NCBI GenBank assembly: GCA_028709385.1
Contig: JAQVXD010000001.1
Location: forward strand, 1 to 64,000
From: Fermentimonas sp.
Lineage (GTDB): Bacteria > Bacteroidota > Bacteroidia > Bacteroidales > Dysgonomonadaceae
Direction: 5' to 3'
DNA: 64,000 bases
Under the pieces are notes generated by a model. The model did not search any database. It worked only from the letters and a program-made list of their open reading frames with translations, and was not told the origin of the DNA. Positions 43,496-60,072 of this stretch are shown here, piece by piece; the stretch's first letter is position 1; every line of letters begins with the position of its first letter. Position numbers and translations under genes: made by a program.

Positions 43496-43569
43496 CATTT
43501 GATCATATCAGATAATTATTCATAGGAGTAATAACTTAAGAGGAACATCAAATAAAATAAGAATATAAA

Positions 43570-43950: not shown

Positions 43951-43960
43951 TTTTAATCAA

Positions 43961-45814
43961 ATGGATTTTTTCAATTATAAAAGACGTCCGACTGTTGATG
44001 TAAAAGTCGGGAATATATTTATGGGCGGGAACTACCCGGTTGTTATTCAAACAATGACTAATACAAATACGCTTGATACAGAAGCAAGTGTTGCCCAGTG
44101 TGAAAGAATTATAGCGTCGGGAGCCGACCTGATAAGATTAACCACGCAAGGTGTGCGTGAAGCTAATAACTTACGTGAGATACATCAGCAGCTGAGAGAT
44201 AAAGGCTATACAACTCCACTTTCGGCTGATATTCATTTTAATCCCCGTGCAGCACATGTCGCAGCTACAATTGCTGAGAAGGTGCGTATTAATCCGGGTA
44301 ATTTTGTTGATAAACAGAAAACTTTCGCAGAAATTGAATATACTGAAGATGAGTATGCAAAGGAGCTGGAGAAGATAAGATCTCAGGTAGTTCCTTTTCT
44401 CAACATTTGTAAAGAGCATGGCACTGCCGTTCGCATAGGTGTTAATCATGGTTCTCTTTCTGATCGTATTATGACCAGGTATGGTGACACTCCGGAAGGT
44501 ATGGTGGAATCATGTATGGAATTTCTGCGAATAGCCATAGAGGAAGATTTTAAGGATATTGTTATATCGATGAAGGCTTCCAATACACTGTTGATGACCA
44601 AAGCGGTACGTCTTTTAGTTGATACTATGGATAAGGAGGATATACATTTTCCTCTGCATTTAGGTGTTACAGAAGCCGGAAATGGTGATGACGGCCGTAT
44701 GAAATCGGCTGTTGGAATCGGTGCATTGCTGATTGACGGGATTGGAGATACAATAAGAGTGTCACTAAGCGAGGACCCTGAAGCTGAAGTTCCTGTTGCA
44801 CAAAAACTTGTTGAATATGTTAACAAACTTAAGGGGCATGCAACAATTGAAGCTAAGCAATACCCGGGATTTTCTCCTTTCTCAATGGACAAGAGAGAAA
44901 CAGATCCTGTCTGGAATGTTGGCGGAGAACATTTACCGTTGGTGATTTCTGACAGGAGCAAGATAACCGACATGTCAGTAAATCCTCATTTTATACCTGA
45001 TTATATTTATGTCGGCAATAAAGTGCCTGACAATTTCCCTAAAGGGATGAAATCAGTTGTTGATTTTGAAAATTGGGAAAATAAAGTTGATAACTTCCCA
45101 CTCTTTACTGTTGAATCACTTGATAAAATACAAGATTGTGATGCACCGGTGAGGTTTCTTCAGTTGTCATACCCTGAATTATCTGATGAGGTTATTGCTT
45201 TCTTAAAAGTTGTTCCTAAGGTTGTTGTTATACTCACAACCGATCATCAAAACAGAGTAGGTGAGCAGAGAGCGTTCTTTCACACACTGCTGAATGAAGA
45301 CTGCCGTGTTCCTGTTGTTCTTCAAAATAACTACTCGGAAGATGAGGCAGAGGATTTACAAATAAAAGCAGGAGTCGATTTTGGCACCGTTTTTCTTGAT
45401 GGTTTCGGTAACGGTATAATGATGAGTAATGAAGGAAAGATTGATATTCTGGATGTGGATGCATACTCATTTGGAATTCTACAGGCCTCTCGAGTTCGAA
45501 CAAGCAAAACAGAATTTATCTCTTGTCCCGGTTGCGGCAGAACTCTTTTTGACCTGCAATCAACAGTTGCTCTTGTACAAAAACATTTTTCACATTTGAA
45601 ACACCTTAAAATAGGTGTAATGGGCTGCATTGTGAATGGTGTCGGTGAGATGGCTGATGCTGATTATGGGTATGTAGGTGCTGAACATGGTAAGATATCA
45701 CTATATCGCAAGAAACAACTTGTTGAAAAAAATATACCTCAGGCCGAAGCTGTAGAACATCTCATTCAGCTTATTAAGGATAATGGGGATTGGATTGAGC
45801 CAACAGAAAATTAA
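43961..45814 (+). CDS. ispG: 4-hydroxy-3-methylbut-2-en-1-yl diphosphate synthase, long form
   Basis: A 617-residue [4Fe-4S] enzyme of the MEP isoprenoid pathway that converts MEcPP to HMBPP. The N-terminal TIM barrel (VGGN-type YPVVIQTMTNTNTLDTEASVAQ) and the C-terminal cluster domain (SCPGCGRTLFDLQ ... GVMGCIVNGVGEM) carrying the three cluster cysteines are clear. Compared with the roughly 370-residue E. coli protein it has an extra domain of about 250 residues between the barrel and the cluster domain. This is the three-domain form of Bacteroidota, Chlamydiae and plastids. It lies 18 bases before the aspartate dehydrogenase gene. Confidence 0.96.
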   Translation: MDFFNYKRRPTVDVKVGNIFMGGNYPVVIQTMTNTNTLDTEASVAQCERIIASGADLIRLTTQGVREANNLREIHQQLRDKGYTTPLSADIHFNPRAAHVAATIAEKVRINPGNFVDKQKTFAEIEYTEDEYAKELEKIRSQVVPFLNICKEHGTAVRIGVNHGSLSDRIMTRYGDTPEGMVESCMEFLRIAIEEDFKDIVISMKASNTLLMTKAVRLLVDTMDKEDIHFPLHLGVTEAGNGDDGRMKSAVGIGALLIDGIGDTIRVSLSEDPEAEVPVAQKLVEYVNKLKGHATIEAKQYPGFSPFSMDKRETDPVWNVGGEHLPLVISDRSKITDMSVNPHFIPDYIYVGNKVPDNFPKGMKSVVDFENWENKVDNFPLFTVESLDKIQDCDAPVRFLQLSYPELSDEVIAFLKVVPKVVVILTTDHQNRVGEQRAFFHTLLNEDCRVPVVLQNNYSEDEAEDLQIKAGVDFGTVFLDGFGNGIMMSNEGKIDILDVDAYSFGILQASRVRTSKTEFISCPGCGRTLFDLQSTVALVQKHFSHLKHLKIGVMGCIVNGVGEMADADYGYVGAEHGKISLYRKKQLVEKNIPQAEAVEHLIQLIKDNGDWIEPTEN

Positions 45815-45832
45815 CGGAAATCATTTGAATTT

Positions 45833-46621
45833 ATGAAGAGACTGGTAATTGTTGGTTGTGGTTTCCTTGCTGATATTGTGGCTGATGCTTTATTAGCCGG
45901 TATGTTGCCTGATTATTATCTGGTAGGTGTATATTCCCGAACAAAGTCTAAGGCTGAGCGACTTGCAGGCAAAATGATAAAAAGAGGGAGGGAGTGTAAG
46001 CCTTGCTCCTCTCTGAGTGAACTGTTTGAACTTAAGCCTGACTTCCTTGTAGAAGCTGCTTCCCCTGCGGCTATGAAAGATTTTGCAATCCCTGCTTTAG
46101 AGAAAGGTATTTCAGTAATCACGTTATCTATAGGAGCTTTTGCAGATAATAGTTTTCTGGAAGAGGTTAAAAGAACTGCTTCTGCAAGCGGTGCAAAAGT
46201 ATATATTGCTTCGGGTGCAACAGGAGGCTTTGATGTGCTTAGAACGACAACTCTTATGGGTAATGCAACAGCTGAGTTTCGTAACGAGAAAGGGGTAAAG
46301 GCTTTAAGAGGGTCATCTCATTATAACAGTGAAATGGAAACTTCGAAGAAGGTTGTCTTTTCAGGCACTGCAAGGGAGGCAATTGAAACTTTTCCGACCG
46401 GACTTAACGTGGCTGTTGCAGCTTCACTGGCAACTGTTGGACCTGAGAATTTGCAGGTGACGATGGAGTCGACGCCTGATTTCACAGGTGACAGGCAACG
46501 TGTGGAGATAAAAAATGATGAGGTTCACGCTTTTGTTGATGTGTTCAGTGCCACTTCTGCCATTGCAGGCTGGTCTTTAGTAAGTACACTACAGAACATT
46601 GTTTCCCCTATTGTTTTCTGA
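45833..46621 (+). CDS. L-aspartate dehydrogenase-like (NadX/DUF108)
   Basis: A 262-residue NAD(P)-dependent oxidoreductase. The Rossmann start is MKRLVIVGCGFLADIVADALL. ASGATGGFDVLRTTTLMGNA and the conserved His in GSSHYNSEM, with FPTGLNVAVAASLA, match the aspartate dehydrogenase domain (DUF108). Such enzymes make iminoaspartate for NAD synthesis in organisms lacking NadB; some act on other amino acids. No nadA or nadC genes are adjacent. The 18-base gap to ispG implies co-transcription, although the pathways are unrelated. Confidence 0.85.
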   Translation: MKRLVIVGCGFLADIVADALLAGMLPDYYLVGVYSRTKSKAERLAGKMIKRGRECKPCSSLSELFELKPDFLVEAASPAAMKDFAIPALEKGISVITLSIGAFADNSFLEEVKRTASASGAKVYIASGATGGFDVLRTTTLMGNATAEFRNEKGVKALRGSSHYNSEMETSKKVVFSGTAREAIETFPTGLNVAVAASLATVGPENLQVTMESTPDFTGDRQRVEIKNDEVHAFVDVFSATSAIAGWSLVSTLQNIVSPIVF

Positions 46622-46683
46622 CAGTTACAGTTAAACTTAAAAAATCTGTTTGCTCATTGTAGCAAGTGCTTGACGATCTTATG

Positions 46684-47577
46684 TCAAACAACTATTCCTG
46701 TAAACTCCGAAAGATTATCCAGTACTTTCTTGCTTAACCTGTCAAATGCCTGCTGTGTTCTGCCTGAGGAAACCTCCATACACCTTATTTTGGGGTGATT
46801 TAGCAGATGATCACCTCCAAGAGCGCCAACTGTATCACAGTAGCACAGGTTGTCTCCTTCAAGCCATTTTAAAAAAGGAGCTTCATCCCATGCGGGTGAC
46901 AGACCGGTATTAAACAGAATTTTCCTGTCTCCCATTTTAGCGAATTGTTCTGCATGCAGTAATATGGTGTTTTTATTGAGACAGCAGCAGATAACTTCAT
47001 TTTCAGCCAAAAGCTCGTCAAGAGGGAGAAATCGATATCCTTTTGCCTTTGCATCTTCTTTTTCACTTCTTGCAAAGTAACTGATCTCTGCTCCAAAGAA
47101 ATGCAAAGCATCAGCTATCATGCCTCCTGATTTGCCAAGTCCGACTATACCTGCCTTTAGTCCTGTTATTTCCCGGGCTACTCCGTCCCACGGGTTCTGT
47201 CCAAAACCATGCAGGCAGCGAACAAGTTCACTTATTACATATTCAACCACTCCTTCATCGCCATAATCCCTTATTCCGGTTACAGTTATTCCTCTGCTGT
47301 TTGCATAAATAATATCAACATTAGCGCTTTCAGGAGAGTAGAGTGAGTTACACATTCCAATATATTTAATATTCGGGCATTTTTCCATCGCTGTCCGGTT
47401 GAGTTGTGTCGTATAGCTTAGTAATACGGCATCAGCATCTCCTATTCGTTGTGCAATATCTGTGTCATTTTCCGGTATATTGTTATGCATAATAACCTCT
47501 TTTGCAAATAGATTTAGCTTCTCTTCGGCTGACGGAATTAAACTTACAGGTTCTATGGCAACTAACTTTTTAAACAT
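46684..47577 (-). CDS. D-isomer-specific 2-hydroxyacid dehydrogenase family protein
   Basis: A 297-residue NAD-dependent dehydrogenase. The NAD-binding segment AGIVGLGKSGGMIADALHFFGAEISYFARS and the preceding GDEGVVEYVISELVRCLHG helix fit the family. The usual catalytic Arg/Glu/His set is only partly clear from sequence: LNKNTILLHAEQF replaces the more typical 'PLT..T...' loop, so the substrate may be unusual. It ends 63 bases from the convergent aspartate dehydrogenase gene and is followed upstream by a tRNA gene on the other strand. Confidence 0.8.
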   Translation of the reverse strand: MFKKLVAIEPVSLIPSAEEKLNLFAKEVIMHNNIPENDTDIAQRIGDADAVLLSYTTQLNRTAMEKCPNIKYIGMCNSLYSPESANVDIIYANSRGITVTGIRDYGDEGVVEYVISELVRCLHGFGQNPWDGVAREITGLKAGIVGLGKSGGMIADALHFFGAEISYFARSEKEDAKAKGYRFLPLDELLAENEVICCCLNKNTILLHAEQFAKMGDRKILFNTGLSPAWDEAPFLKWLEGDNLCYCDTVGALGGDHLLNHPKIRCMEVSSGRTQQAFDRLSKKVLDNLSEFTGIVV

Positions 47578-47722
47578 ATCAATTCAATTTAATTTTTAAT
47601 AAAACAAATATAACCAGGTAAACCCGGATATTATAACTCTGTTGTAAAATAAATATTGCTTCATATTTGGAGTTTTAACGAAAAAGTAGTAATATTGCAC
47701 CCGCTTTTGTCAGATGACAAAC

Positions 47723-47796
47723 GGTCCCATAGCTCAGTTGGTTAGAGCACCTGACTCATAATCAGGGAGTCACTGGTTCAAGCCCAGTTGGGACCA
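47723..47796 (+). tRNA. tRNA with CAU anticodon, probably tRNA-Ile2 (lysidine-modified)
   Basis: A complete 74-base cloverleaf. Acceptor GGTCCCA pairs with TGGGACC; D arm is GCTC...GAGC; anticodon stem CTGAC/... with loop CTCATAA; T arm ACTGG-TTCAAGC-CCAGT; discriminator A; CCA not encoded. The CAU anticodon could be elongator Met or Ile2. C4-G69 and C5-G68 pairs in the acceptor are features used by TilS to recognise tRNA-Ile2, which favours Ile. Initiator Met is excluded by the full 1-72 pair and anticodon stem. A strong terminator follows at once. Confidence 0.9.
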
Positions 47797-47801
47797 CTTA
47801 A

Positions 47802-47847
47802 AAATAAAGGCTTTACAGATGTTTATCTGCAGAGCCTTTATTTTTTT
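47802..47847 (+). terminator. Intrinsic terminator of the tRNA transcript
   Basis: A 19-base stem (47802-47820 with 47825-47843, two G-U pairs) around GTTT, followed by a run of T. It is immediately downstream of the tRNA. It could also act on the minus strand for the transporter gene that ends at 47902. Confidence 0.9.
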
Positions 47848-47901
47848 GCTATTTTGTCTACTTAATTAATAATCTAACTCCTAAACTTTTTCCGTATTTT
47901 T

Positions 47902-49383
47902 TTACATTTTTGTTATAACCTGGTATTTAGGTACAAGTGTTTTCATTATCATCCATCCTATAAGATAGGCAAAAGCACATATGATAAAAATTATAAAATA
48001 TCCGGAATCAATACCTTCAAATCCCATAAACTTTAAATTTGTGTTTGCAGAAAAATCAAACAAAACTCCTGAGCCTTGATTGATTAGATAAGATCCTATA
48101 CCTCCTGCCATTCCACCAATACCGGTAATGGTTCCCACTGCATATTTCGGAAACATGTCACTCACGGTAGTGAAGATATTTGCGGACCACGACTGATGTG
48201 CTGCAGCGGCAATACCTATAATTATTACCGGAAGCCATACTGATATCTGTCCTAATGGCTGTGCAAATAGAATCAGTACCGGAAACATTGCAAAAAGCAA
48301 CATAGCTCTCATTCGTCCCTGATAGGGGTCCATTTTCTTCTTTTTCATGAAGTATGCGGGGAAGTATCCCGCTGCAAATACAGATATCATTGAAATTGCA
48401 TACACCAGGAATACATGTGGAGCACTTTGAGTTGAGTCTAAGCCATATACAGAGCTCAGGTAGGCAGGTATCCAGAACAGTAAAAACCACCATACACCGT
48501 CGGTCAGGAATTTACCAATGGCAAACGACCAGGTTTGTCTATGTTTGAAAGCTTGTTTGAATGTAACTTTCTTTCCCAAATTATCTTTAGCATTTACAGG
48601 AATAGAACCTGTGGCTGAGGTTGCAGCTGCATCAGTTATTTCATCCTGATTAATATATGCTAATTCTGCAGCATTAACTCTTTTGTTCTTTTCAGGTTTC
48701 TCGTAGATAAATACCCAAAATCCCATCCAGATAAATCCAAGAGCACCTATAACAACGAATGCCATTTCCCATCCCCATGCTCTTGCAATGAAAGGAATTG
48801 TTAATGGAGCAATTAAAGCGCCAATTTGAGCACCTGCATTAAATAGGCTTGTTGCATATGCTCTATCTTTTTTAGGGAAATATTCAGCTGTTGCTTTAAT
48901 AGCTGCAGGGAAGTTTCCTGCCTCACCAATAGCAAGTACAAGTCGTGCAAAAACAAACAGCGTTACACTTACCGAAACTACCATTGAAACATCTCCGACT
49001 GTGGAAATTGCTGCACGTGCTCCTGCAAAGCTCATTGTCCATTCACCCGCCACTATACCGGATGTAATTAATCCGCAAAAAGCATGAATTACAGCGCCCA
49101 ATGACCATATGCCAATTGCCCATAAATATCCTTTTTTAGTATCCAAACGGTCAACAAACTTTCCTGCAAATAGCATTGATATCGCATAAAAGAGTGAAAA
49201 CAGACCGGCTACAGTTCCATAGTCGCTGTTTGTCCAGTGAAATTCAGGGGCTATAAAATCTGCCCATGTAAGCGACAGAACCTGCCTGTCAAGATAGTTG
49301 ATTGTAGTTGCCAAAAACAGCATAAGACATATTGTCCAGCGCTGATTGGTCATTTTTGCTTTTCCTTGTTGTAGATTAGTCAT
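47902..49383 (-). CDS. MFS hexuronate transporter (ExuT-like, anion:cation symporter family)
   Basis: A 493-residue, twelve-helix major facilitator protein. WTICLMLFLATTINYLDRQVLSLTWADF and VLAIGEAGNFPAAIKATAEYFPKKDRAYATSLFNAGAQIGALIAP are hallmark segments of the ACS family, which contains ExuT/GudP-type glucuronate/galacturonate/glucarate carriers. A short cytoplasmic insert lies mid-protein (about 240-290). The gene follows the LacI regulator on the same strand and sits beside uronate isomerase, so hexuronate uptake is the best assignment. The start may be the second Met (MTNQRW), ten codons later. Confidence 0.88.
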   Translation of the reverse strand: MTNLQQGKAKMTNQRWTICLMLFLATTINYLDRQVLSLTWADFIAPEFHWTNSDYGTVAGLFSLFYAISMLFAGKFVDRLDTKKGYLWAIGIWSLGAVIHAFCGLITSGIVAGEWTMSFAGARAAISTVGDVSMVVSVSVTLFVFARLVLAIGEAGNFPAAIKATAEYFPKKDRAYATSLFNAGAQIGALIAPLTIPFIARAWGWEMAFVVIGALGFIWMGFWVFIYEKPEKNKRVNAAELAYINQDEITDAAATSATGSIPVNAKDNLGKKVTFKQAFKHRQTWSFAIGKFLTDGVWWFLLFWIPAYLSSVYGLDSTQSAPHVFLVYAISMISVFAAGYFPAYFMKKKKMDPYQGRMRAMLLFAMFPVLILFAQPLGQISVWLPVIIIGIAAAAHQSWSANIFTTVSDMFPKYAVGTITGIGGMAGGIGSYLINQGSGVLFDFSANTNLKFMGFEGIDSGYFIIFIICAFAYLIGWMIMKTLVPKYQVITKM

Positions 49384-49467
49384 GATTTACTTCGTAATAA
49401 TTATATAGTTACTTTGTCTTATCGACGTGTTGGCATCTTACATTTTTTTCGGTACTCTCTTATATTG

Positions 49468-50532
49468 TTAATTTAATTTAAGCCCGTTATAATAATCAAT
49501 AGTCTCTTTTGTGAGGATATCAAGTTGCATATAGTTTTCCAATGTAACATGGTTCTTGAATATAAGGTATACGAGCAATGTTTTCATTGCATAAAAACCT
49601 TGATATTCGGGACCTTGACCAATTAAGAAGTCTATTTGCCCTTTTTTGAGTGCTTCAGTATTTGGAGTAGTCACATCCATGCAGATCATTTTTACGTTTT
49701 CGATTCTATTATTTGCCAGGTAGTCTGACACAATACTGCCCCTTGAGTTCAAAACTACAATACCGGAGACATCACAATTGTTTTTGAAAAAGCTTGAAAG
49801 GTGTCTTTCATTGTCTTCCGGCTGAGCAACAGAGAAAGGAATCGTAAGAACCTGATTGTTCTTTTTTTCTTCAGTTAGATAATCAGTGAAACCTCTTTTT
49901 CTAAGTATGGTTGTGTTTGCACTGCTGTCACCGGTTCTAACCGCCTGCAAAAGACCAATATTTGCTCCTTCAGGAATAATTGATGTAATAAGATGAGCAA
50001 TTAGTCTTCCCACAGTATAATGATCTGCTGAAAAGAATGCTAAAGGTGATGTTTCATCTATAGTGGAGTCTACAAATATATAAGGTATTCCTCTATCATC
50101 CATTTTGTTGCACAAATCTATAGTCTCATCTTTAAAGGTAGGACCAATAATAAGTGCATCCATATCAAAGCTTGATATTTTTTCAAATATCTCTATGCAG
50201 GAGTATATATCGTATTGATTATAAGTGAAAACATGATATTCTACTTTAATATTCTCATACTCCTCTAAAGCATTTCGAATGCCATTGTGTATACTTTCCC
50301 AATAAGCACCTCTTGAAAATTGCGGTGTAGTTACAACAATCCTGTATTTTCTTTTAAGTGAGAGTGATGAAACGTGCATGTTGGGTTTGTAGTCAACCTT
50401 CTCTATAACTTTCTCTACTGCCTTACGCGCCTCGTCAGAAACATTGCCGCGATTATGAAGTACCCTGTCAACAGTACCGGCTGATACTCCTGCCATCTTT
50501 GCAATATCTTTTATTCGTATTTTCTTTTCCAT
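49468..50532 (-). CDS. LacI-family transcriptional regulator of the uronate locus
   Basis: A 354-residue repressor. The helix-turn-helix and hinge fill the first 60 residues (RIKDIAKMAGVSAGTVDRVLHNRGNVSDEARKAVEKVIEKVDYKPN), followed by a periplasmic-binding-protein-like ligand domain (about 65-345). The gene lies between, and transcribed away from, uronate isomerase. A good LacI operator (50645-50664) lies in the divergent gap, overlapping the -7 box of the isomerase gene. A uronate or a catabolite such as fructuronate is the likely inducer. The ligand-domain style (VSDYLANNRIENVKMICMD) is like Bacteroidota substrate-binding LacI proteins. Confidence 0.9.
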   Translation of the reverse strand: MEKKIRIKDIAKMAGVSAGTVDRVLHNRGNVSDEARKAVEKVIEKVDYKPNMHVSSLSLKRKYRIVVTTPQFSRGAYWESIHNGIRNALEEYENIKVEYHVFTYNQYDIYSCIEIFEKISSFDMDALIIGPTFKDETIDLCNKMDDRGIPYIFVDSTIDETSPLAFFSADHYTVGRLIAHLITSIIPEGANIGLLQAVRTGDSSANTTILRKRGFTDYLTEEKKNNQVLTIPFSVAQPEDNERHLSSFFKNNCDVSGIVVLNSRGSIVSDYLANNRIENVKMICMDVTTPNTEALKKGQIDFLIGQGPEYQGFYAMKTLLVYLIFKNHVTLENYMQLDILTKETIDYYNGLKLN

Positions 50533-50641
50533 TTATAGGAGTTTTAAAATAGATTTAATTCATGTTTAACTTAAAATTACAGAAAAAGTGCCTTCAGGAC
50601 AAAATTTTAAGAATTTGATTTTGTATTATTCAAATTATTTG

Positions 50642-50649
50642 TACTTTTG
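50642..50649 (+). promoter_or_regulatory. -7 element (TACTTTTG) of uxaC, with -33 TTTTG
   Basis: TACTTTTG fits TAnnTTTG. A TTTTG at 50619-50623 lies 18 bases upstream and can serve as the -33 element. The predicted start falls inside the LacI operator. Confidence 0.6.
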
Positions 50650-50664
50650 TGTACGTGCACAAAA
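50645..50664. promoter_or_regulatory. LacI-family operator
   Basis: TTTTGTGTACGTGCACAAAA is a 20-base palindrome with central CG and only one mismatched pair, the classical symmetry of LacI-family sites. It overlaps the -7 box and start of transcription of uxaC and lies 113 bases upstream of the divergent regulator gene. Confidence 0.75.
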
Positions 50665-50796
50665 ATAGATTTAATATTTCATTTATAAAACAAAATTTGA
50701 AATATTTTTCATTCTCCTTTTAAATATATGAAACTTATACATTAATTAACTTTCAATACTTAATCAGTAACAGCTCCAATTTTAAATGTTTGCCAT

Positions 50797-52206
50797 ATGA
50801 AAAATTTTATACATGAAGACTTTTTACTCCAGACAGAAACCGCCAAAAATTTATATCATAAACATGCTGAGGTCTTGCCGATAATTGACTATCACTGTCA
50901 TCTTAATCCAAAAGAGATAGCAGAGAATCATCAATTTAAGAGTATTACTGAGCTTTGGCTTGGGGGAGATCATTATAAATGGAGGTTACTAAGGGCAAAT
51001 GGTGTAGACGAGAAATATATTACAGGTGACGCAACTGATTGGGAAAAGTTTGAAAAATGGGCGGAAACCATACCATATACAATGCGGAATCCTATGTATC
51101 ACTGGACTCATCTTGAACTTAAACGAGTATTTAATATAGACATTTTATTTAGACCGGACACTGCCCTGGAAATATATGATAAGGCAAACGAGATGTTGCA
51201 GAAGCCGGAATTTTCTGCAAGAGGCTTAATGAAAAGATTTAAGGTTGAAGTTGTATGTACCACAGACGATCCAATAGACACACTTGAGTACCATAGACAA
51301 ATTAAAGAGAGCGGATTCGATATTAAAGTTTTGCCTACCTGGCGTCCGGATAAATCGATGGCAGTTGAGAACGTTGAGAACTTCAGAATATACATTGATA
51401 ATCTAATCGAAGCGACTGATATTAAAATCAGCAATTTTGATGATTATCTTTCAGCTATTACTAAACGACACGACTATTTTCAGGAAAACGGATGCAAGCT
51501 TGCTGATCATGGTATAGACAATTTTTATTCTGAACCCTACAATGATGACGAGATAAATCAGATTTTTGATAAGGTTTACAACAAAAAAGAGAATCTTACA
51601 GATGAGGAGGTATTGAAATTTAAATCAAAGATGCTGCATGAAAATGCCTTACTAAACCATGCTAAAGGGTGGGTTCAACAGTTCCACTATGGTGCTATCA
51701 GAAATAATAACAGCAGGATGTTTAAAATGATAGGTCCTGATGCCGGTTATGATTCCATGAATGATGTTAGTAATGTTGCCCGTTCTATGTCCTGTTTTTT
51801 TGATGCTCTTGAAAGTAAAAACAAGTTGGCTAAGTCATTAATATATAATCTTAACCCAAGAGATAACTACTTGATTGCATCGATGATTGCCAATTTCCAG
51901 GATGGAACTGTTCCTGGAAAGATACAGTTTGGATCAGGTTGGTGGTTTCTGGATCAGAAAGACGGAATGGAAGATCAGATGAATATTCTTTCAACTCAGG
52001 GATTGCTTAGCCGTTTTGTGGGCATGCTTACGGACTCGCGCAGTTTTGTTTCTTATCCCCGTCATGAATATTTCCGCAGAATATTATGTAATCTCATCGG
52101 GAATGATGTTGAGAATGGTCTCCTTCCCTCCTCCGAGATGGATTTCCTTGGTAAGATGGTTGAGGGAATCTGTTATTATAACGCTAAAGATTACTTCAGC
52201 TTCTGA
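50797..52206 (+). CDS. uxaC: Uronate isomerase (glucuronate/galacturonate isomerase)
   Basis: A 469-residue amidohydrolase-fold enzyme. It converts D-glucuronate to D-fructuronate and D-galacturonate to D-tagaturonate. The metal-site HxH is DYHCHLNP (His33, His35). Family blocks include LWLGGDHYKWRLLRANGV, CTTDDPIDTLEYH, LPTWRPDK, and HYGAIRNNNSRMF near the C-terminal half. Length is normal (about 465-470). It is the first gene of the plus-strand uronate run and directly under the LacI operator. Confidence 0.96.
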   Translation: MKNFIHEDFLLQTETAKNLYHKHAEVLPIIDYHCHLNPKEIAENHQFKSITELWLGGDHYKWRLLRANGVDEKYITGDATDWEKFEKWAETIPYTMRNPMYHWTHLELKRVFNIDILFRPDTALEIYDKANEMLQKPEFSARGLMKRFKVEVVCTTDDPIDTLEYHRQIKESGFDIKVLPTWRPDKSMAVENVENFRIYIDNLIEATDIKISNFDDYLSAITKRHDYFQENGCKLADHGIDNFYSEPYNDDEINQIFDKVYNKKENLTDEEVLKFKSKMLHENALLNHAKGWVQQFHYGAIRNNNSRMFKMIGPDAGYDSMNDVSNVARSMSCFFDALESKNKLAKSLIYNLNPRDNYLIASMIANFQDGTVPGKIQFGSGWWFLDQKDGMEDQMNILSTQGLLSRFVGMLTDSRSFVSYPRHEYFRRILCNLIGNDVENGLLPSSEMDFLGKMVEGICYYNAKDYFSF

Positions 52207-52245
52207 TCCATCGCTATTAGAAGACTATTTTACGAGATATCGGCT

Positions 52246-52274
52246 ATTTAGAAATGTGAGATTCTCTAAATTTG
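52246..52274 (+). promoter_or_regulatory. Inverted repeat overlapping a -7 element (TAAATTTG)
   Basis: ATTTAGA (52246-52252) and TCTAAAT (52265-52271) are perfect 7-base arms around 12 bases. The right arm runs into TAAATTTG (52267-52274), a TAnnTTTG -7 box 26 bases before the SDR start. This suggests an internal promoter under separate control in the uxaC-SDR gap. Confidence 0.4.
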
Positions 52275-52299
52275 TAGTATAAACTTTAAAGATATAATT

Positions 52300-53112
52300 A
52301 TGTACGATTTATTTAACATCAAAGACAAAGTTGTTGTCATTACCGGTGGAACCGGAGTTTTAGGTACCTCAATGGTTGAATATCTGGCGGTTCACGGAGC
52401 TAAAGTTGCAGTTCTTGCCAGAAATAAAGAAAAAGGTGATGCTCTAATTGAGAAAGTTGAAGCAAAAGGTGGAGATGCAATATTTCTTCAGACTGATGTT
52501 TCAGATGAGAAAGTTCTAAAGCAGAATGCCAAAGATATTGTAACTAAATATGGTAAAATAGATGTTTTGATAAACGGAGCAGGAGGTAACATGCCAGGTG
52601 CAACTATTGGTCCGAACAGTACTATTTTCGATCTTAAGATTGATGATTTCCGCAAAGTGGTCGATCTTAATTTAATGGGAACTGTTATACCAACAGTTGT
52701 TTTTGCTAAATATATGGTAGAGGCTAAAAAGGGTAATATTATAAACATTACTTCAGCATCAGCTCTGCGACCTCTTACGAGAGTTGCAGGATATGGTGCG
52801 GCAAAAGCAGCAGTTTCAAACTTTACTAAGTATATGGCAGGCGAATTAGCTACAAAATTTGGGGAAGAATTCAGAGTAAATGCAATATGTCCGGGGTTCT
52901 TTATTACAGAACAAAACCGCACACTGTTAACAAATAGTGACGGTTCTAATACAGATAGAGGCTACTCAATTATTGCTCACACTCCTTTCCGTCGATTTGG
53001 TAATCCCGAAGATCTTCTTGGCACACTTCACTATCTGGCAAGTGATGCTTCGAAATTTGTAACTGGAACTGTCGCTATTGTTGATGGTGGTTTTGATGCT
53101 TTTAGTATTTAA
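52300..53112 (+). CDS. SDR-family D-mannonate oxidoreductase (fructuronate reductase-like)
   Basis: A 270-residue short-chain dehydrogenase/reductase. The NAD(P)-binding TGGTGVLG is at residues 15-22, NGAGGNMP follows, and the catalytic Tyr-x3-Lys is in YGAAKAAV. The C-terminal half carries NAICPGFFITEQNRTLL and TPFRRFGNPEDL. SDRs of this type replace classic UxuB in many Bacteroidota and Firmicutes, reducing fructuronate to mannonate. Position directly after uxaC supports the assignment. Tagaturonate/altronate activity cannot be excluded. Confidence 0.85.
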   Translation: MYDLFNIKDKVVVITGGTGVLGTSMVEYLAVHGAKVAVLARNKEKGDALIEKVEAKGGDAIFLQTDVSDEKVLKQNAKDIVTKYGKIDVLINGAGGNMPGATIGPNSTIFDLKIDDFRKVVDLNLMGTVIPTVVFAKYMVEAKKGNIINITSASALRPLTRVAGYGAAKAAVSNFTKYMAGELATKFGEEFRVNAICPGFFITEQNRTLLTNSDGSNTDRGYSIIAHTPFRRFGNPEDLLGTLHYLASDASKFVTGTVAIVDGGFDAFSI

Positions 53113-53169
53113 TCGGTGTTTTTTACTGATAGATAGTTTTTAATTAAAAATTAATATACATATACCGCT

Positions 53170-54249
53170 ATGTCTCTCGGATTAAGAAAAGAATTTAAAT
53201 ATTCACTGGTGGTACCCACAAGTATGGGGGTGAGAATAACACCAGTGAACAGTCAGCCTGTACAGAGTATTAATATGTTTCAGATGCAGGCAACAAGTGC
53301 TGAAACTAATGTAGCAAGCATTTCATCATATCTGGGTCTGCCTGTTAAAGTGCTGACTAATTTTGTAAAGGGCAGTCCTATAGCTGCATTTATAAAGACA
53401 GATCTGCGGGCAAGAAATATGGAATATGAGGGTCCCGAAATACCTCAGGGTGGTCCGTGGGGTTATCGTCATCAGTTTAATATTGCTGACAGCGGTTTCG
53501 GTTTGCGCGGTCCTCGTGTTCATAACGACCGTGCAGGAGAAGTAGGAAGAGTGCTGAATGTTAAAGATTTCGACCTTGAGCGTATATTCGTTAAAGAGGG
53601 AGTGCAGATTGTACATCTATCTGGTTTAATTGCTGCATTGTCTCCTCAGGCAAGTGAATTCTGCCTTGATATTGCCCGTTTTGCTAAGAAGCATGGTACA
53701 CTTATCTCATTTGACCTTAATCACAGGGCTACTTTTTGGGAAGGAAGAGATAGAGAACTCAGAGAAGCATTCACTGAGATTGCATCACTTTCTGATATTC
53801 TTATTGGAAATGAGGAGGATTATCAGCTTTGTTTAGGTGTGGAGGGACCTGCAGCAGGTGGAGAAAATATTGAAGATACAATAGGTGCATTTAAAGGTAT
53901 GATTCTTAATGCACAGAAGGCTTTCCCAAATGTAACAGTATTTGCTAACACACTCAGGGAGGTGATTAGCGCTAATGAACATCTGTGGGGAGCAATTGTT
54001 TATGAGAATGGCAACTGGCACGAAGCTCCGTTGCGTACAATTAACGTGATTGACAGAATAGGGGGAGGTGATGGATTTGTTGGAGGTTTACTATACAGTA
54101 TATTAAAAGGTATGGAGCCTGAAAAATGGATTCAGTTTGCCTGGGCAAGTGGTGCTTTAGCTACTACTTTCCTTACAGACTATGCTCAGCCTGCTGATGA
54201 AGATGTTATTTGGAGTATCTGGGAAGGCAACGCAAGGGTTAAGAGATAA
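53170..54249 (+). CDS. PfkB-family sugar-acid kinase
   Basis: A 359-residue ribokinase-fold kinase. The substrate-side segment SFDLNHRATFWEG resembles the FDxNxRxxLW signature of 2-keto-3-deoxygluconate kinases. The nucleotide side has DRIGGGDGFVGGLLYS, where the catalytic Asp follows GGG. The usual Ala after Asp is Gly here. Family similarity points to KdgK, but the locus has no mannonate dehydratase or KDPG aldolase. A 6-phosphogluconate dehydrogenase follows, so gluconate or mannonate are alternative substrates. I rank the assignment as sugar-acid kinase of unproven specificity. Confidence 0.8.
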   Translation: MSLGLRKEFKYSLVVPTSMGVRITPVNSQPVQSINMFQMQATSAETNVASISSYLGLPVKVLTNFVKGSPIAAFIKTDLRARNMEYEGPEIPQGGPWGYRHQFNIADSGFGLRGPRVHNDRAGEVGRVLNVKDFDLERIFVKEGVQIVHLSGLIAALSPQASEFCLDIARFAKKHGTLISFDLNHRATFWEGRDRELREAFTEIASLSDILIGNEEDYQLCLGVEGPAAGGENIEDTIGAFKGMILNAQKAFPNVTVFANTLREVISANEHLWGAIVYENGNWHEAPLRTINVIDRIGGGDGFVGGLLYSILKGMEPEKWIQFAWASGALATTFLTDYAQPADEDVIWSIWEGNARVKR

Positions 54250-54351
54250 TATTTAACATAGAAAATGAAATAACGATTAAGAAAGAACAATTAAGGTTCA
54301 CGATATGTCGAAAACTTAACTCTTCATTCTTAGTTCAAAATTTATATAAAT

Positions 54352-55806
54352 ATGAAAAAGAAAGCAGATATAGGCTTGATCGGGTTAGCTGTTATGGGCG
54401 AAAACCTGGTCCTTAATATGGAGAATAAAGGTTATACAGTTGCAGTGTTTAACCGTACTGTAGATAAAGTAGATGCGTTTGTTAACGGTCGCGGTAAAGG
54501 AAAAAACTTTATTGGTGCGCGAACTCTTGAAGAGTTTGTTTCTTCTATTGAAAGACCAAGAAAAGTGATGCTGCTGGTAAAGGCTGGCAAGCCTGTTGAT
54601 GATTTCATAGAAAAACTTATTCCACTGCTTGAACCGGGTGATATTATCATAGATGGTGGTAACAGTCATTTCCCTGACTCAATGCGCAGAACTGAATATG
54701 TTGAGAGTAAAGGTCTTCTGTATATTGGCACAGGCGTATCAGGCGGTGAAGAGGGAGCACTTAAAGGTCCTTCACTCATGCCTGGGGGTTCACCTGAAGC
54801 ATGGCCTCACGTAAAAGAGATTTTTCAGGCAGTAGCTGCAAAAGTTGATAACGGTGTGCCTTGCTGTGACTGGGTTGGAGAGAATGGTGCCGGACACTTT
54901 GTAAAGATGGTACATAACGGAATCGAGTATGGTGATATGCAGATTATCAATGAAGCTTATCATCTGATGAAAGATCTGCTTGGTATGGATGCATTTGAGC
55001 AGCATGAGGTTTTCAAAAAATGGAGCCCGGGAGTGCTGGATTCATACCTTATTGAAATTACTACTGATATACTCGCTTTTAAAGATGAGGATGGTTCTCC
55101 ACTGGTAGAAAAAATACTGGATACTGCAGGTCAGAAAGGTACCGGAAAATGGACCGCAGTAACAGCCCTTGAGCTTGGTATCCCACTTACACTTATAGGT
55201 GAATCTGTTTTCTCAAGGTGTCTTTCTGCCCAGAAGGATCTCAGAGTGAAGGCTTCAAAGGTTCTAACCGGTAAAAAACCAGACTTCAAAGGAGATAAGC
55301 AGCAATTTATTAATGATCTGGAAAATGCAATTTATGCTTCCAAGATTATTTCTTATGCTCAGGGATATGACTTGATGATGGAAGCTGCAAAAGAGTATAA
55401 ATGGAATCTAAACTACGGAGGTATTGCTCTTATGTGGCGAGGCGGTTGCATAATCCGTTCACGTTTCCTGGGAGATATAAAGAATGCTTTTGATAATAAT
55501 CCGAAGTTGGAAAATCTATTACTTGACCCGTTTTTTAAGAATGCAGTTCAATCAGCCGAAGAGAGCTGGCGCAGGGTATGTGCCACAGCGCTTATGAATG
55601 GAATTCCAGTTCCTGCAATATCTTCTGCATTAGGTTATTTCGACGGATTCAGGAGTGAGCGACTACCGGCAAACCTTTTGCAGGCTCAACGTGACTATTT
55701 TGGTGCACATCAGTATGAAAGGCTTGATAGTCCGCGTGGTGAGTTCTTTCATACCGACTGGACCGGTCGAGGTGGCAGCACTGCATCCAGCACATATGAT
55801 GTTTAA
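54352..55806 (+). CDS. gnd: 6-phosphogluconate dehydrogenase, decarboxylating
   Basis: A full-length 484-residue enzyme that oxidises and decarboxylates 6-phosphogluconate to ribulose-5-phosphate. N-terminal Rossmann GLAVMGENLVLNM with FNRT after it, the Asn-Arg-Thr pattern that marks NADP preference. IDGGNSHFPDSMRR, SGGEEGALKGPSLMPGG and GAGHFVKMVHNGIEYGDMQ supply the substrate and catalytic Lys/Glu residues. The C-terminal tail HTDWTGRGGSTASSTYDV is also typical. No zwf or pgl gene is adjacent, unlike oxidative-pentose-phosphate operons, so its substrate here may come from uronate catabolism. Confidence 0.95.
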   Translation: MKKKADIGLIGLAVMGENLVLNMENKGYTVAVFNRTVDKVDAFVNGRGKGKNFIGARTLEEFVSSIERPRKVMLLVKAGKPVDDFIEKLIPLLEPGDIIIDGGNSHFPDSMRRTEYVESKGLLYIGTGVSGGEEGALKGPSLMPGGSPEAWPHVKEIFQAVAAKVDNGVPCCDWVGENGAGHFVKMVHNGIEYGDMQIINEAYHLMKDLLGMDAFEQHEVFKKWSPGVLDSYLIEITTDILAFKDEDGSPLVEKILDTAGQKGTGKWTAVTALELGIPLTLIGESVFSRCLSAQKDLRVKASKVLTGKKPDFKGDKQQFINDLENAIYASKIISYAQGYDLMMEAAKEYKWNLNYGGIALMWRGGCIIRSRFLGDIKNAFDNNPKLENLLLDPFFKNAVQSAEESWRRVCATALMNGIPVPAISSALGYFDGFRSERLPANLLQAQRDYFGAHQYERLDSPRGEFFHTDWTGRGGSTASSTYDV

Positions 55807-55876
55807 GGATAATTGATTTTCATCTGTCCGGTTTGATTATTGGACGGTTGCATAATTTATATATCAATCTAAAAAG

Positions 55877-57160
55877 ATGATTTATTACGAATATGGCTCA
55901 CCTCAGACAAGTCTGTCTAAAGATGATCTTAAAAGAGGGCTAAATGAGGCATTAGACAAATTGGGTGAACGGCATAAAATTCTTGCCGTTCCTCCCGATT
56001 ATACCCGCTTGCCAAGTAAAGCAGGAGAACTTACTGAGTTCGCCTGGGAATATTATGCTGAAAAGCTGACCGATATTCTTCCTGCATTAGGCACCCACAC
56101 TCCAATGACTGACAAACAAATAAGTCATATGTTTGGTAATACACCCAGGAATCTTTTCAGAGATCACGACTGGCGTAATGACGTCCTGACTCTTGGGGAA
56201 GTGCCGGCAGACTATGTTAAAGAGATTTCTGAGGGGAAGGTCGACTTACCCTGGCCTGCTCAGGTAAACAAACTACTAGTGGAAGGCGGATTCGATCTGA
56301 TACTTTCCATCGGACAGGTTGTTCCTCATGAAGTTGTCGGTATGGCTAATTTTAATAAGAACATTCTTGTAGGAACAGGAGGCAGTGAAGGTATAAATAA
56401 AAGTCACTATATCGGTGCCGTTTACGGTATGGAGCGAATGATGGGGCGTACAGACACACCGGTTCGCCGCGTTTTTAATTATGCCACAGAGAAATACCTG
56501 ACCGGATTGCCAATAGTATATGTTCTTACTGTTGTCGGAGTTAATGAAAAAGGTGTAGAGCAAACCTACGGTTTGTTTGTTGGGGATGATCTGGAAGTAT
56601 TTGACCGTGCTTCAAAATTGTCACTTGAAGTTAACTTTGTAATGGTTGAGAAACCCTTAAATAAAGTAGTTGTCTGGCTCGATCCTAAAGAGTTTAAGAG
56701 TACCTGGCTGGGGAATAAATCGATATACCGTACCAGGATGGCAATTGCAGACGGGGGACAGCTTATTGTAATAGCACCCGCATTGAAAGAATTTGGAGAA
56801 GATAAGGAAATTGACAGGTTGATTCGAAAATATGGTTATTTTGGAACTACTGATACGTTAAAAGCTGTATCAGAAAACAGGGAGTTAAGGGACAACCTGA
56901 GTGCTGCGGCACACCTTATTCACGGGTCATCTGAAGGGCAATTTTCCATAACTTACTGTCCTGGTAAAGAGTCATACAATCTTACAAGAGAAGAAATTGA
57001 AAGTGTTGGTTTTTGCTGGGGAGATTTTGATGAAGCAATGCAGAAGTATAATATTCCGGCGTTAAAAGAGGGGTATAATATTCTGCCCGACGGAGAAGAG
57101 ATATATTATATCTCAAGTCCCGCCTTGGGTTTATGGGCGCATAAAGATCGATTTGAATAA
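55877..57160 (+). CDS. LarA/DUF2088-family protein, candidate nickel-pincer aldonate epimerase
   Basis: A 427-residue cytosolic protein of the lactate-racemase family. DYTRLPS (41-47) matches the DxTRxxP phosphate-binding motif. His151, Lys161 and His177 (PHEVVGMANFNK ... INKSH) have exactly the spacing of His174, Lys184 and His200 in L. plantarum LarA, where the Lys carries the nickel-pincer nucleotide and the His residues act in hydride transfer and Ni binding. His74 (GTHTPMT) may be the other catalytic His. LarA homologues epimerise various 2-hydroxyacids at C2. Following gnd and a sugar-acid kinase, the best guess is mannonate-gluconate epimerisation. No larB, larC or larE lies in the window. 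Confidence 0.85.
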   Translation: MIYYEYGSPQTSLSKDDLKRGLNEALDKLGERHKILAVPPDYTRLPSKAGELTEFAWEYYAEKLTDILPALGTHTPMTDKQISHMFGNTPRNLFRDHDWRNDVLTLGEVPADYVKEISEGKVDLPWPAQVNKLLVEGGFDLILSIGQVVPHEVVGMANFNKNILVGTGGSEGINKSHYIGAVYGMERMMGRTDTPVRRVFNYATEKYLTGLPIVYVLTVVGVNEKGVEQTYGLFVGDDLEVFDRASKLSLEVNFVMVEKPLNKVVVWLDPKEFKSTWLGNKSIYRTRMAIADGGQLIVIAPALKEFGEDKEIDRLIRKYGYFGTTDTLKAVSENRELRDNLSAAAHLIHGSSEGQFSITYCPGKESYNLTREEIESVGFCWGDFDEAMQKYNIPALKEGYNILPDGEEIYYISSPALGLWAHKDRFE

Positions 57161-57229: not shown

Positions 57230-58651
57230 ATGACTACAAGAAGAGAGTTTATTAGAAATGCTGCATTAGCTTCTGCCGGACTTGCAGTGGGAGGTTTATC
57301 AACTAAAACCAATGCAGCAAGTTACAGTAGGATAGTTGGTTCCAATAAAAAAGTGAATCTTGCACATATTGGAGTTGGAAACAGAGGATGGGAGATCATG
57401 AATGATTTCGATAAAACCGGTCTGGCTAACGTCGTTGCTCTGTGTGATGTAGATATGGGAGCTGAACATACAAAAAGAGCTCTTGCGAAATTCCCTAATG
57501 CAAAAAGATTTAAAGACTTCAGGGAAATGTTTGATAAGATGGGTAACGAAATAGAAGCTGTTGCAATAGCAACACCTGATTTTGCCCATTTCCCCGCAGT
57601 GATGATGTCGATGGCTGAAGGAAAACATGTTTATGTGGAGAAGCCACTAAGCAGAACATTTCATGAATCAGAGTTATTAATCCAAGCTGCTAAGAAGTAT
57701 CCAGAAGTAGTTACACAGATGGGAAATCAGGGACATTCCGAAGCCAACTACTTTCAGTTTAAAGCATGGAAAGAAGCCGGAATCATTAAAGATGTAACTG
57801 CCATTACCGCACACATGAATAATGCAAGAAGATGGCACGGATGGAATACTGATATCAAAAAATTTCCTAATCCAGAACCGATACCTGAAACATTAGACTG
57901 GGATACTTGGTTGATGGCACGTAATTATCACGATTATAACAAGGATTTCCATTACGGTCAGTGGCGTTGCTGGTACGATTTTGGTATGGGAGCCCTTGGC
58001 GATTGGGGTGCACATATTATAGATACTGCACACAGATTTCTTGATCTGGGATTACCTGAAGAGGTGACGCCATTGAAACTTAGCGGTCATAACGATTTCT
58101 TTTTTCCAATGTCGAGTACTATAGAATTTAAATTTCCCAAACGTGGAAATATGCCACCGGTAGTTATCACATGGTATGATGGTGTTGACAATATTCCATC
58201 TGTTCCTGAAGGATACGGAGTGTCGGAGCTCGACCCAAATATTCCGAGTGTTGGCGGAGGTCAGATACAACCGGCTAAATTGAATCCCGGTAAAGAGATA
58301 TATAGTAAAGAGTTGACATTTAAAGGAGGTTCGCATGGCAGCACTTTAAGTATTATTCCGGAAGAAAAAGCCAAAGATATGGAAAAGAATCTGCCCGAGG
58401 TACCAAAAAGTCCTTCTAATCATTTTGCTAATTTCCTACTTTCATGTCAGGGTAAAGAAGAATCAAGATCTCCTTTTGAAATTTCCGGTCCGCTGAGTCA
58501 GGTGTTTTGTATGGGTGTAGCAGCTCAGAGATTAAACAGGAAAATTGTTTTCGATCGTGAAACTAAGCGCGTTACAAATGATGCATTTGCAGATGCTTTC
58601 CTTACCGGAGAGCCACCAAGAAAAGGTTGGGAGGATTTTTATAAAATATGA
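57230..58651 (+). CDS. Tat-exported Gfo/Idh/MocA oxidoreductase
   Basis: A 473-residue NAD(P)-dependent oxidoreductase. The start TTRREFIRNAALASAGLAVGG is a twin-arginine signal. The Rossmann domain carries LAHIGVGNRGWEIMNDF and the family's EKPL motif (VYVEKPLSRTFHES). The C-terminal beta-sheet domain contains the GDWGAHIIDTAHRF His pair. Periplasmic members of this family in Bacteroidota are usually neighbours of DUF1080 proteins, as here (62-base gap). Such pairs are increasingly linked to 3-keto-glycoside chemistry. Substrate is unknown. Confidence 0.9.
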   Translation: MTTRREFIRNAALASAGLAVGGLSTKTNAASYSRIVGSNKKVNLAHIGVGNRGWEIMNDFDKTGLANVVALCDVDMGAEHTKRALAKFPNAKRFKDFREMFDKMGNEIEAVAIATPDFAHFPAVMMSMAEGKHVYVEKPLSRTFHESELLIQAAKKYPEVVTQMGNQGHSEANYFQFKAWKEAGIIKDVTAITAHMNNARRWHGWNTDIKKFPNPEPIPETLDWDTWLMARNYHDYNKDFHYGQWRCWYDFGMGALGDWGAHIIDTAHRFLDLGLPEEVTPLKLSGHNDFFFPMSSTIEFKFPKRGNMPPVVITWYDGVDNIPSVPEGYGVSELDPNIPSVGGGQIQPAKLNPGKEIYSKELTFKGGSHGSTLSIIPEEKAKDMEKNLPEVPKSPSNHFANFLLSCQGKEESRSPFEISGPLSQVFCMGVAAQRLNRKIVFDRETKRVTNDAFADAFLTGEPPRKGWEDFYKI

Positions 58652-58713: not shown

Positions 58714-60072
58714 ATGAAGAAAAATATTTTACTTTTAATTTCAATGATTATGGTACTTGCTTCATGCACACAGCAAGGTCCGCAATGGAAAGAACTTTTC
58801 AATGGAGAAAACCTCGATGGTTGGGAAAAATTGAATGGCACAGCAGAATATAAAGTTGAGGATAACATGATTATCGGTATATCAGAGATGAATACTCCAA
58901 ACACCTTTCTTGCGACTACTGAGACCTATGGTGATTTTATTCTCGAGTTTGATTTCAAAGTAGATGACGGATTAAATTCCGGTGTTCAATTCAGAAGCTT
59001 AAGTTTACCTGAATACAGGGATGGCAGAGTGCACGGGTATCAGTTTGAAATAGACCCTTCCGACCGTGGCTGGACAGGAGGCGTTTATGATGAAGCCCGA
59101 CGTGGCTGGATTTATCCGCTTGAATATAATCCGGATGCACAGAAAGCTTTTAAGAACGAAGAGTGGAACAGTGCAAGAATTGAAGCAATCGGCAACTCAA
59201 TACGTACTTGGGTTAACGGTGTTGAATGCGCTAATCTTCTGGATAATACAACTCCTGAAGGGTTTATAGCACTTCAGGTGCACTCAATAGGAAATGAAGA
59301 GTTATCCGGGAAAGAAGTAGCCTGGCGCAATATTCGCATACTGACAGATAATCTCGATCAATATAAAACTCCTGTAAACAGTAACGTTAAGCAGCTGAAT
59401 CAGATTGCAAACACAATATCTGATCTGGAGTCTTCGGAAGGATGGAAGTTGCTTTGGGACGGCGAAACAACCAACGGTTGGCGAGGTGCAAAACTTGATG
59501 AGTTTCCTGAACAGGGCTGGGTAATTGAAGACGGAATTCTGAAGGTCCAAAAAGGAGACGGTGGTGAATCAACAAATGGAGGCGATATAGTAACTACCAG
59601 ACCTTATAAAAACTTCATGCTTAAAGTTGATTTCAAAATTACTGAGGGAGCTAACAGCGGAATTAAATATTTCGTTGATACTAACTTAAACAAAGGAGAA
59701 GGTTCTGCTATAGGATGTGAGTTTCAGATACTTGACGACAGGAATCACCCCGATGCAAAACTTGGTATTGCAGGAAACAGAACTTTAGGCTCACTTTATG
59801 ATCTTATCGCGGCTCCGGAAGACAAACCTTTCCGTAATGGGTTTTTCAATACTGCTATGGTAGTGGTTGAAGGAAATCACGTTGAGCATTGGCTTAATGG
59901 TGTTAAGATTGTAGAATATGAGCGAAATACCGAAGAGTGGGAAGCACTTGTACAAACAAGCAAATACAAAGATTGGCCAAATTTCGGTAATGCTGAGGAA
60001 GGGCTTTTACTTCTCCAGGATCATGGCGATGAAGTGTGGTTTCAGAATATAAAGATTAAAGAACTGGAATAA
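58714..60072 (+). CDS. Tandem DUF1080 lipoprotein (3-keto-disaccharide hydrolase-like)
   Basis: A 452-residue lipoprotein with lipobox Cys18 (MVLASC). Two concanavalin-like DUF1080 domains follow. The first begins [17 protein letters not shown] (about 25-210), the second [17 protein letters not shown] (about 245-450). Each contains the NSG(V/I) motif and the GVQFRSL / GIKYFVDTN segments. DUF1080 proteins include enzymes cleaving 3-keto-glycosides. The tandem form and the adjacent Gfo/Idh oxidoreductase suggest joint action on an oxidised sugar in the periplasm. The transcript ends at the terminator at 60114. Confidence 0.88.

Follow-up and report, generated by a model that had tools for sequence, protein, structure and literature searches.

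A conserved Fermentimonas operon with a group-18 LarA homologue, a PfkB-family kinase and gnd as a probable route from hexuronates to the pentose phosphate pathway

The window analysed in this study is a stretch of 64,000 nucleotides from Fermentimonas sp. (assembly GCA_028709385.1, contig JAQVXD010000001.1, positions 1 to 64,000), and it represents the start of the contig designated C111 in an assembly of 2.83 Mb with a completeness of 88.4%. Five genes on the plus strand, encoding UxaC, a short-chain dehydrogenase/reductase (SDR), a PfkB-family kinase (hereafter, the cassette PfkB), 6-phosphogluconate dehydrogenase (Gnd), and a LarA homologue (LarAH) of group 18, form one operon behind a divergently oriented LacI-family gene. 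Judged from gene content and conservation, the operon probably conveys hexuronates into the pentose phosphate pathway by means of the LarA-type epimerase, the cassette PfkB, and Gnd. Labels beginning with G, C, and L denote genomes, contigs, and loci, respectively. The features of the locus are as follows.

47902–49383, minus strand: major facilitator superfamily (MFS) transporter, substrate unproved; PF07690, 175.5 bits, every NCBIfam transporter model below its cut-off.
49393–49486, no strand: junction of about 94 bp; the relative G052 has kduI, a kduD-like SDR gene, a BT3233-family gene, kdgK, and eda at this place, in about 4.9 kb (blastn against L201).
49468–50532, minus strand: LacI-family regulator; PF00356, 61 bits, and PF13407, 118 bits.
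50645–50664, no strand: near-perfect palindrome TTTTGTGTACGTGCACAAAA, candidate operator, with 2 mismatches against its own reverse complement.
50797–52206, plus strand: uxaC, glucuronate/galacturonate isomerase; PF02614, 682 bits; NF002794, 648 bits, cut-off 387.
52300–53112, plus strand: SDR, D-mannonate oxidoreductase (fructuronate reductase); NF006132, 372 bits, cut-off 281.
53170–54249, plus strand: cassette PfkB, proposed gluconate (or mannonate) 6-kinase; PF00294, 69 bits, below all NCBIfam cut-offs listed.
54352–55806, plus strand: gnd, decarboxylating NADP-type 6-phosphogluconate dehydrogenase; TIGR00873, 753 bits, cut-off 427.
55877–57160, plus strand: group-18 LarA homologue, proposed mannonate/gluconate 2-epimerase; NF052594 (nickel-dependent putative hexonate epimerase), 646 bits, cut-off 500.
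57230–58651, plus strand: Gfo/Idh/MocA oxidoreductase, conserved neighbour; NF058561, 283 bits, below the cut-off of 750.
58714–60072, plus strand: DUF1080 / 3-keto-disaccharide hydrolase-like protein, conserved neighbour; PF06439, 308 bits.

The sequence-only reading of this DNA had placed uxaC, the SDR gene, pfkB, gnd, and larA on one strand with short gaps, and the open reading frames and family matches agree with it (57–102 bp); the gaps from uxaC through the SDR, cassette PfkB, gnd, LarA, and Gfo/Idh genes to that of DUF1080 are 93, 57, 102, 70, 69, and 62 bp. The curated NCBIfam cut-offs were passed by UxaC, SDR, Gnd, and LarA, and the cassette PfkB passed the broad Pfam model only. The transporter, which had been called ExuT-like, could be classified only as a generic MFS protein, and its gene lies outside the interval 49468–57160 covered by that reading. 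In G052, the MFS gene is located on the same strand as, and after, kdgK-eda. The Gfo/Idh/MocA oxidoreductase could possibly serve as a supplier of uronates.

Conservation of the cassette was assessed in a family set of 101 genomes, for which 60 regions were fetched, four of them (L087–L090) for other reasons. Matches to NF052594 were found in 55 of the 101 genomes, 53 of them above the cut-off. These LarA-positive genomes include contig-end fragments in G086 and G097, a gene with a stop codon in G098, and two genomes in which LarA is divergent, either solely (G084) or apart from a remnant of the usual gene (G040). In 49 of the 60 regions, LarA was complete and had an identity of 60% or more, and same-strand neighbours were counted there up to a distance of 6.5 kb: Gnd in 49, the cassette PfkB in 44, the SDR in 41, Gfo/Idh in 40, DUF1080 in 36, and UxaC in 19 loci. 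Among the 34 loci with 4.5 kb on both sides, the respective numbers were 34, 33, 32, 29, 27, and 15. Since Gnd, the cassette PfkB, and the SDR accompany LarA at these frequencies, their grouping is not due to chance, and the SDR–PfkB–Gnd–LarA block seen in the window is conserved in relatives. UxaC was matched in 50 of the 55 LarA-positive genomes. In one locus (L041 of G062), gnd is split into three reading-frame pieces within an otherwise conserved cassette, which may be an assembly error.

A wider set consisted of the best 80 of 570 relatives; eight of these 80 loci are contigs of the family set, and 69 of the remaining 72 qualified. Judged by their record titles, they represent Bacteroidota, Ignavibacteria, Planctomycetes, Lentisphaerae, Verrucomicrobia, and Acidobacteria. 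The neighbours included the SDR in 53, Gnd in 49, the cassette PfkB in 36, UxaE in 19, and UxaC in 11 loci, and, among the 38 loci with enough flank, in 34, 35, 22, 13, and 5, respectively. The neighbour queries for UxaE, UxuA, KdgK, Eda, LarB, and LarE were applied to the best-80 loci and not to the 49 family loci. The presence of UxaE would let galacturonate in as well (PMC6353982); no UxaE gene was found beside uxaC in the window.

The Ashwell pathway requires mannonate dehydratase (UxuA), 2-keto-3-deoxygluconate (KDG) kinase (KdgK), and 2-keto-3-deoxy-6-phosphogluconate (KDPG) aldolase (Eda), and this set was not found in the 88%-complete assembly of the window. The lack of a mannonate dehydratase and a KDPG aldolase, noticed earlier for the window, extends to the whole assembly, where neither UxuA nor Eda (PF01081) was matched; with E of at most 1e-30, no KdgK was detected either, the sole match being the cassette PfkB with 30% identity. 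All three proteins were unmatched in 12 of the 55 LarA-positive family genomes (that of the window, G040, G042, G044, G049, G050, G061, G083, G085, G097, G098, and G099), of which five are 98–100% complete (G040, G042, G049, G050, and G061). The genomes G049 and G050 are single-contig chromosomes with the cassette, with UxaC encoded elsewhere, and without UxuA, KdgK, and Eda. In a blastn comparison with L201 of G052, window positions 49487–52622 aligned with 3138–1 and positions 43002–49392 with 14431–8050, so that the gene block between LacI and MFS in G052 corresponds to the short junction of the window. The arrangement in G083 (L069) is short and identical to that of the window, and in G059 (L199), eda and kdgK are also adjacent to the MFS gene. 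Because of the latter, the simplest reading is a loss of the kdgK-eda block in the lineage of the window, insertion in the other genomes being the alternative. The explanation of the missing genes by assembly gaps is weakened by the syntenic gap on an intact contig and by the two single-contig chromosomes. High-scoring UxuA (at least 425 bits, 28 genomes) and LarA were together in none of the 101 family genomes. This mutual exclusion was rejected as proof, as it holds only for high-scoring UxuA, which is confined to four genera, and shared ancestry accounts for it no less well than function.

In the proposed route, LacI would control an operon whose products send hexuronates into the pentose phosphate pathway and would stand in for the unfound UxuA-KdgK-Eda branch. 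By family, UxaC would convert glucuronate to fructuronate, and the SDR would convert fructuronate to D-mannonate. The LarA homologue would invert C2 of mannonate to give D-gluconate, the cassette PfkB would phosphorylate gluconate to 6-phosphogluconate, and Gnd, which exceeds the cut-off for NADP-type enzymes, would decarboxylate the latter to ribulose-5-phosphate with formation of NADPH. The same sequence of intermediates had been put forward in the sequence-only reading; it has good genomic support as a route, and the order of its reactions is less certain, because the kinase may act first. The gain of NADPH predicted there is not supported: one NAD(P)H is consumed in the reduction of fructuronate and one NADPH is regained at the Gnd step, and thus the sum to ribulose-5-phosphate would be redox-neutral, with one ATP spent and C1 leaving as CO2. 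At most, electrons would shift from NADH to NADPH; the SDR has an Arg at the end of its second strand, which would suit NADPH. As had been observed, zwf does not adjoin gnd, and it is located about 197 kb away on the same contig. No match to zwf was obtained in 10 of the 55 LarA-positive family genomes, two of which are 99% complete (G072 and G073). Gnd in these genomes needs another source of 6-phosphogluconate and is probably not fed by glucose-6-phosphate.

By sequence comparison, the cassette PfkB forms a clade of its own. Its residues (86 sequences, 80 of them distinct) were compared with those of 16 KdgK proteins having at least 60% identity to KdgK from the canonical operon of G007; ten sequences of 30–54% identity were left out. 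The identity of the cassette PfkB to the KdgK of relatives is 30%. Tyr90 and Tyr105 of the G007 KdgK, which we take to be substrate contacts in KDG kinases, correspond to Asn104 and Asn119, each clade being at least 90% uniform at these positions, and the three glycines Gly34–Gly36 are replaced by Thr42-Ser43-Ala44. Arg107/Arg121, Arg170/Arg186, and Asp286/Asp301 are kept in both. The KDG kinase of Thermotoga maritima has Tyr at both aligned positions. The NCBIfam models of KDG kinases gave 95 and 57 bits for the cassette PfkB (cut-offs 440 and 400); they are of no help in this question, since the KdgK of the G007 canonical operon also remains below them (215 and 114 bits). In a fold search with the predicted model (mean predicted local distance difference test score 81.8, below 50 for residues 108–120, which include Asn119), the nearest structures were Listeria 4gm6 and the T. 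maritima KDG kinase TM0067 (2afb). The latter resembles the cassette PfkB in fold (TM-score 0.78 by query length) and in the conserved Arg and Asp positions, but shares only 24–25% identity and differs by the two Tyr-to-Asn replacements.

The cassette PfkB and KdgK are both encoded in 11 of the best-80 loci, including one cluster on one strand in each of L121, L137, and L143, and such coexistence makes it unlikely that the former is the KDG kinase. The assignment as KDG kinase was rejected on the grounds of low identity, substrate-side residues, and this co-occurrence, and the protein appears very unlikely to be one. With regard to the neighbouring genes, gluconate or mannonate would be the natural guess for its substrate. 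The GntE/GntK route of the T. maritima type has a dedicated gluconate kinase beside the epimerase; the kinase encoded in the window belongs to the PfkB family, and gluconate is one of its putative substrates. Among the loci without the cassette PfkB, a ROK kinase was found nearby in L160, and a diphosphate-dependent phosphofructokinase-like protein together with a HAD-like protein in L142, L149, and L159.

The sole match of the LarA homologue among PDB sequences was 4nar, the T. maritima GntE2, which turns mannonate into gluconate (PMC7583248). The homologue exceeds the curated cut-off for LarAH group 18, which is predicted to act on hexonate (PMC7583248). The equivalents of LarA D72, R75, H108, H174, K184, H200, and K298, whose roles in binding of the nickel-pincer nucleotide (NPN) or in catalysis are given in the same source, are all present, as are the EV loop and the W specified there for the hexonate groups 18–20. 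These seven residues and the EV loop are invariant in every row but a truncated one (128 of 129 rows, with 121 distinct sequences).

None of the 101 family genomes matched LarC. LarE and LarB exceeded their cut-offs in three of them (G040, G053, and G084), beside divergent LarA proteins of 44–46% identity; in most other family genomes, the matches below the cut-offs appear, to judge by score and length, to be other ATP pyrophosphatases and PurE. Genomes of 50 of the best-80 loci were searched for LarC and LarE. Neither protein was matched in the six that belong to the family set. Among the other 44, most of which are metagenome assemblies of unknown completeness, both were matched in 24 (LarE below the cut-off in L136), only LarE in four, and neither in 16, including Draconibacterium aestuarii. 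The four genomes with LarE only are all Planctomycetes (L152, L160, L164, and L171 of G136, G140, G143, and G146); these and G040, G053, and G084 have LarE without a LarC match, and LarC may therefore be replaceable. In a LarA tree of 58 rows built by a quick method, the three states of the cofactor genes need 15 changes, which points to repeated loss or gain. It is unlikely that LarC was overlooked by the search, as matches were obtained in 6 of 14 control genomes and in 24 of the 50 genomes with group-18 LarA; the LarC scores of G126, G127, and G131 were only 83–87 bits. All 24 LarC-positive genomes also matched LarE, that of G126 below the cut-off with 127 bits.

Within the cassette, no gene was recognised that could replace the cofactor genes: PdxB-like and Gfo/Idh genes adjoin LarA regardless of whether LarC is present (L106) or absent (L112). 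They occur in 34 and 24 of the best-80 loci, respectively, mostly between LarA and Gnd. The PdxB-like gene of L140 (11281–12420) scored 440 bits against NF001309 (cut-off 434). In G040 (L081, 7205–11927), genes for a divergent LarA (46% identity), LarE, and LarB lie between those for the cassette PfkB and Gnd. Of the usual LarA, a remnant (query residues 1–82 and, weakly, 393–427) is retained between Gnd and Gfo/Idh. From its sequence, the locus is read as a displacement of one epimerase by another, suggesting that the function of the cassette LarA can be taken over by an enzyme of the NPN type; G040 also has no LarC match. Near the divergent LarA-LarE-LarB genes of G084 and G053 (L082, 6341–15645; L083), an anaerobic ribonucleotide reductase, a TonB receptor, and a protein with DUF5074 are encoded, joined in L083 by a DUF6580 protein; this neighbourhood might serve the uptake of nickel or a precursor.

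Taken together, the lack of LarC in all 101 family genomes and of LarB and LarE in all but three, the single-contig chromosomes being among those lacking them, the 16 of 44 other genomes in which LarC and LarE were both unmatched, and the invariant cofactor-site residues are the basis for a second reading. The chances are about even that an NPN enzyme in the apparent main uronate route works in cells without the known NPN pathway, with the cofactor coming from neighbouring cells like a vitamin or from another pathway, and with the cassette PfkB as the gluconate or mannonate kinase. The reverse case, LarB, LarC, and LarE without LarA, is reported in PMC11796402; a literature search, which covered open-licence PubMed Central only, found no report of LarA without LarB, LarC, and LarE.

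The candidate operator between LacI and uxaC had a mean of 0.01 matches in shuffled sequences and was kept in five of six aligned LacI–uxaC gaps. A scan of 1.13 Mb of family loci gave 22 rows with its core TTGTGnACGnnCACAA, representing 21 distinct sites because L201 overlaps L058, with about 0.03 expected at an assumed GC content of 40% (44% measured); the sites are homologous to each other and not independent. Every row lies within 151 bp of an SDR, UxaC, LacI, or Gfo/Idh gene. The exact core was present at the cassette starts of 20 of the 49 family loci and none of the 69 other loci, and is thus a feature of only a part of the family.

Several observations weigh against the proposed route. 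The assembly of the window is 88% complete, and among the 55 LarA-positive family genomes, UxuA was matched in 26, KdgK in 41, and Eda in 40. In G041, G078, and G071, UxuA follows LarA at a distance of about 1 kb and is preceded by an AraC-type gene (in the last genome, UxuA and LarA are both broken or cut), and UxuA of at least 50% identity was found within 8 of the best-80 loci, five of which have the cassette PfkB. As many relatives keep both branches, a simple replacement is weakened as an explanation. UxaC was unmatched in 5 of the 55 LarA-positive genomes, and 29 of the 49 family loci, as well as all 69 others, lack the exact operator core. The larB, larC, and larE companions that would be expected (they are outside the family definition) were not found in the 88%-complete genome of the window, where there was no LarC match and the best scores for LarE and LarB were 36 and 54 bits (cut-offs 150 and 175).

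The order of the last steps could be reversed, with the cassette PfkB phosphorylating mannonate and the LarA homologue epimerising 6-phosphomannonate to 6-phosphogluconate. Both activities were shown in extracts of Lactobacillus suebicus (PMC6978723), the gene orders fit equally well, and the departure of the kinase from KDG kinases at substrate-side positions would also fit this order. However, the genes behind the two activities in L. suebicus are not known according to that source, and the assayed GntE enzymes were active on unphosphorylated D-mannonate (PMC7583248, PMC11770544); a kinase-first order is considered rather unlikely. It is improbable that free gluconate or mannonate is the main substrate of the operon and uronates a minor one. 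The low frequency of UxaC near the cassette (19 of 49 family loci) and the absence of the exact operator core from the loci that encode UxaC in G049 and G050 would fit such a role, but uxaC is the first operon gene in the window, the SDR belongs to a mannonate/fructuronate family, and most LarA-positive genomes have a UxaC match.

A classical Ashwell pathway, with its missing genes in the genome portion not covered by sequence and with the cassette PfkB as KDG kinase, is in agreement with the incomplete assembly, with the solved KDG kinases being nearest to this protein in fold and sequence, and with the presence of UxuA, KdgK, and Eda in many relatives. It is nevertheless very improbable in view of the absence of the kdgK-eda block at the syntenic position, where the contig is intact, the chromosomes of G049 and G050, the lack of both KdgK tyrosines, and the coexistence with KdgK. 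Finally, the LarA homologue might use another cofactor than NPN or act on another aldonate. The lack of LarC throughout the family set and of both LarC and LarE in the 16 further genomes would be explained in this way, whereas the unchanged NPN-binding and catalytic positions speak against it, and this possibility is regarded as quite improbable.

Two further features of the window are an ArsA-type anion-transporting ATPase with repeated PF02374 matches (9116–10891) and a GH2 beta-galactosidase-type enzyme next to two sulfatases (16081–22315), perhaps for a sulfated glycan.

The idea of a hexuronate route with GntE and a gluconate kinase is not new, having been proposed for T. maritima by Rodionova 2012, as cited in PMC6978723 and PMC7583248; the activity of the epimerase was shown in 2020 (PMC7583248), and a third GntE was added later (PMC11770544). 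The T. maritima route and the one proposed here share the epimerisation of mannonate by a LarA-superfamily enzyme, followed by phosphorylation and the pentose phosphate pathway. They differ in the PfkB-family kinase and the gnd inside the operon of the window, in the LarA group (18, versus 20 in T. maritima), and in the cofactor genes, as LarC and LarE were matched in the T. maritima control and not found in the genome of the window; the last point also sets the window apart from what is expected of group 18. The galacturonate route of L. suebicus (PMC6978723) is similar in joining the upper isomerase pathway to 6-phosphogluconate and Gnd and is likewise called redox-neutral, but mannonate is phosphorylated first there and the route ends in phosphoketolase. 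New are the defined Bacteroidota form of the operon, which encodes a PfkB-type kinase and includes gnd, and the absence of the cofactor pathway from the genes found.

In the literature covered, the route had been described in one proposal and one study of cell extracts, and the operon provides a form of it that is conserved and defined by its genes. Yield predictions for growth on hexuronates would change, with one carbon lost as CO2, pentose phosphate formed instead of pyruvate and triose phosphate, and a redox-neutral balance. It also raises the sharp question of how an intact nickel-pincer cofactor site works in cells without LarB, LarC, and LarE; if this holds true, either a sharing of the cofactor or a second way of synthesising it would be new for NPN within the literature covered.

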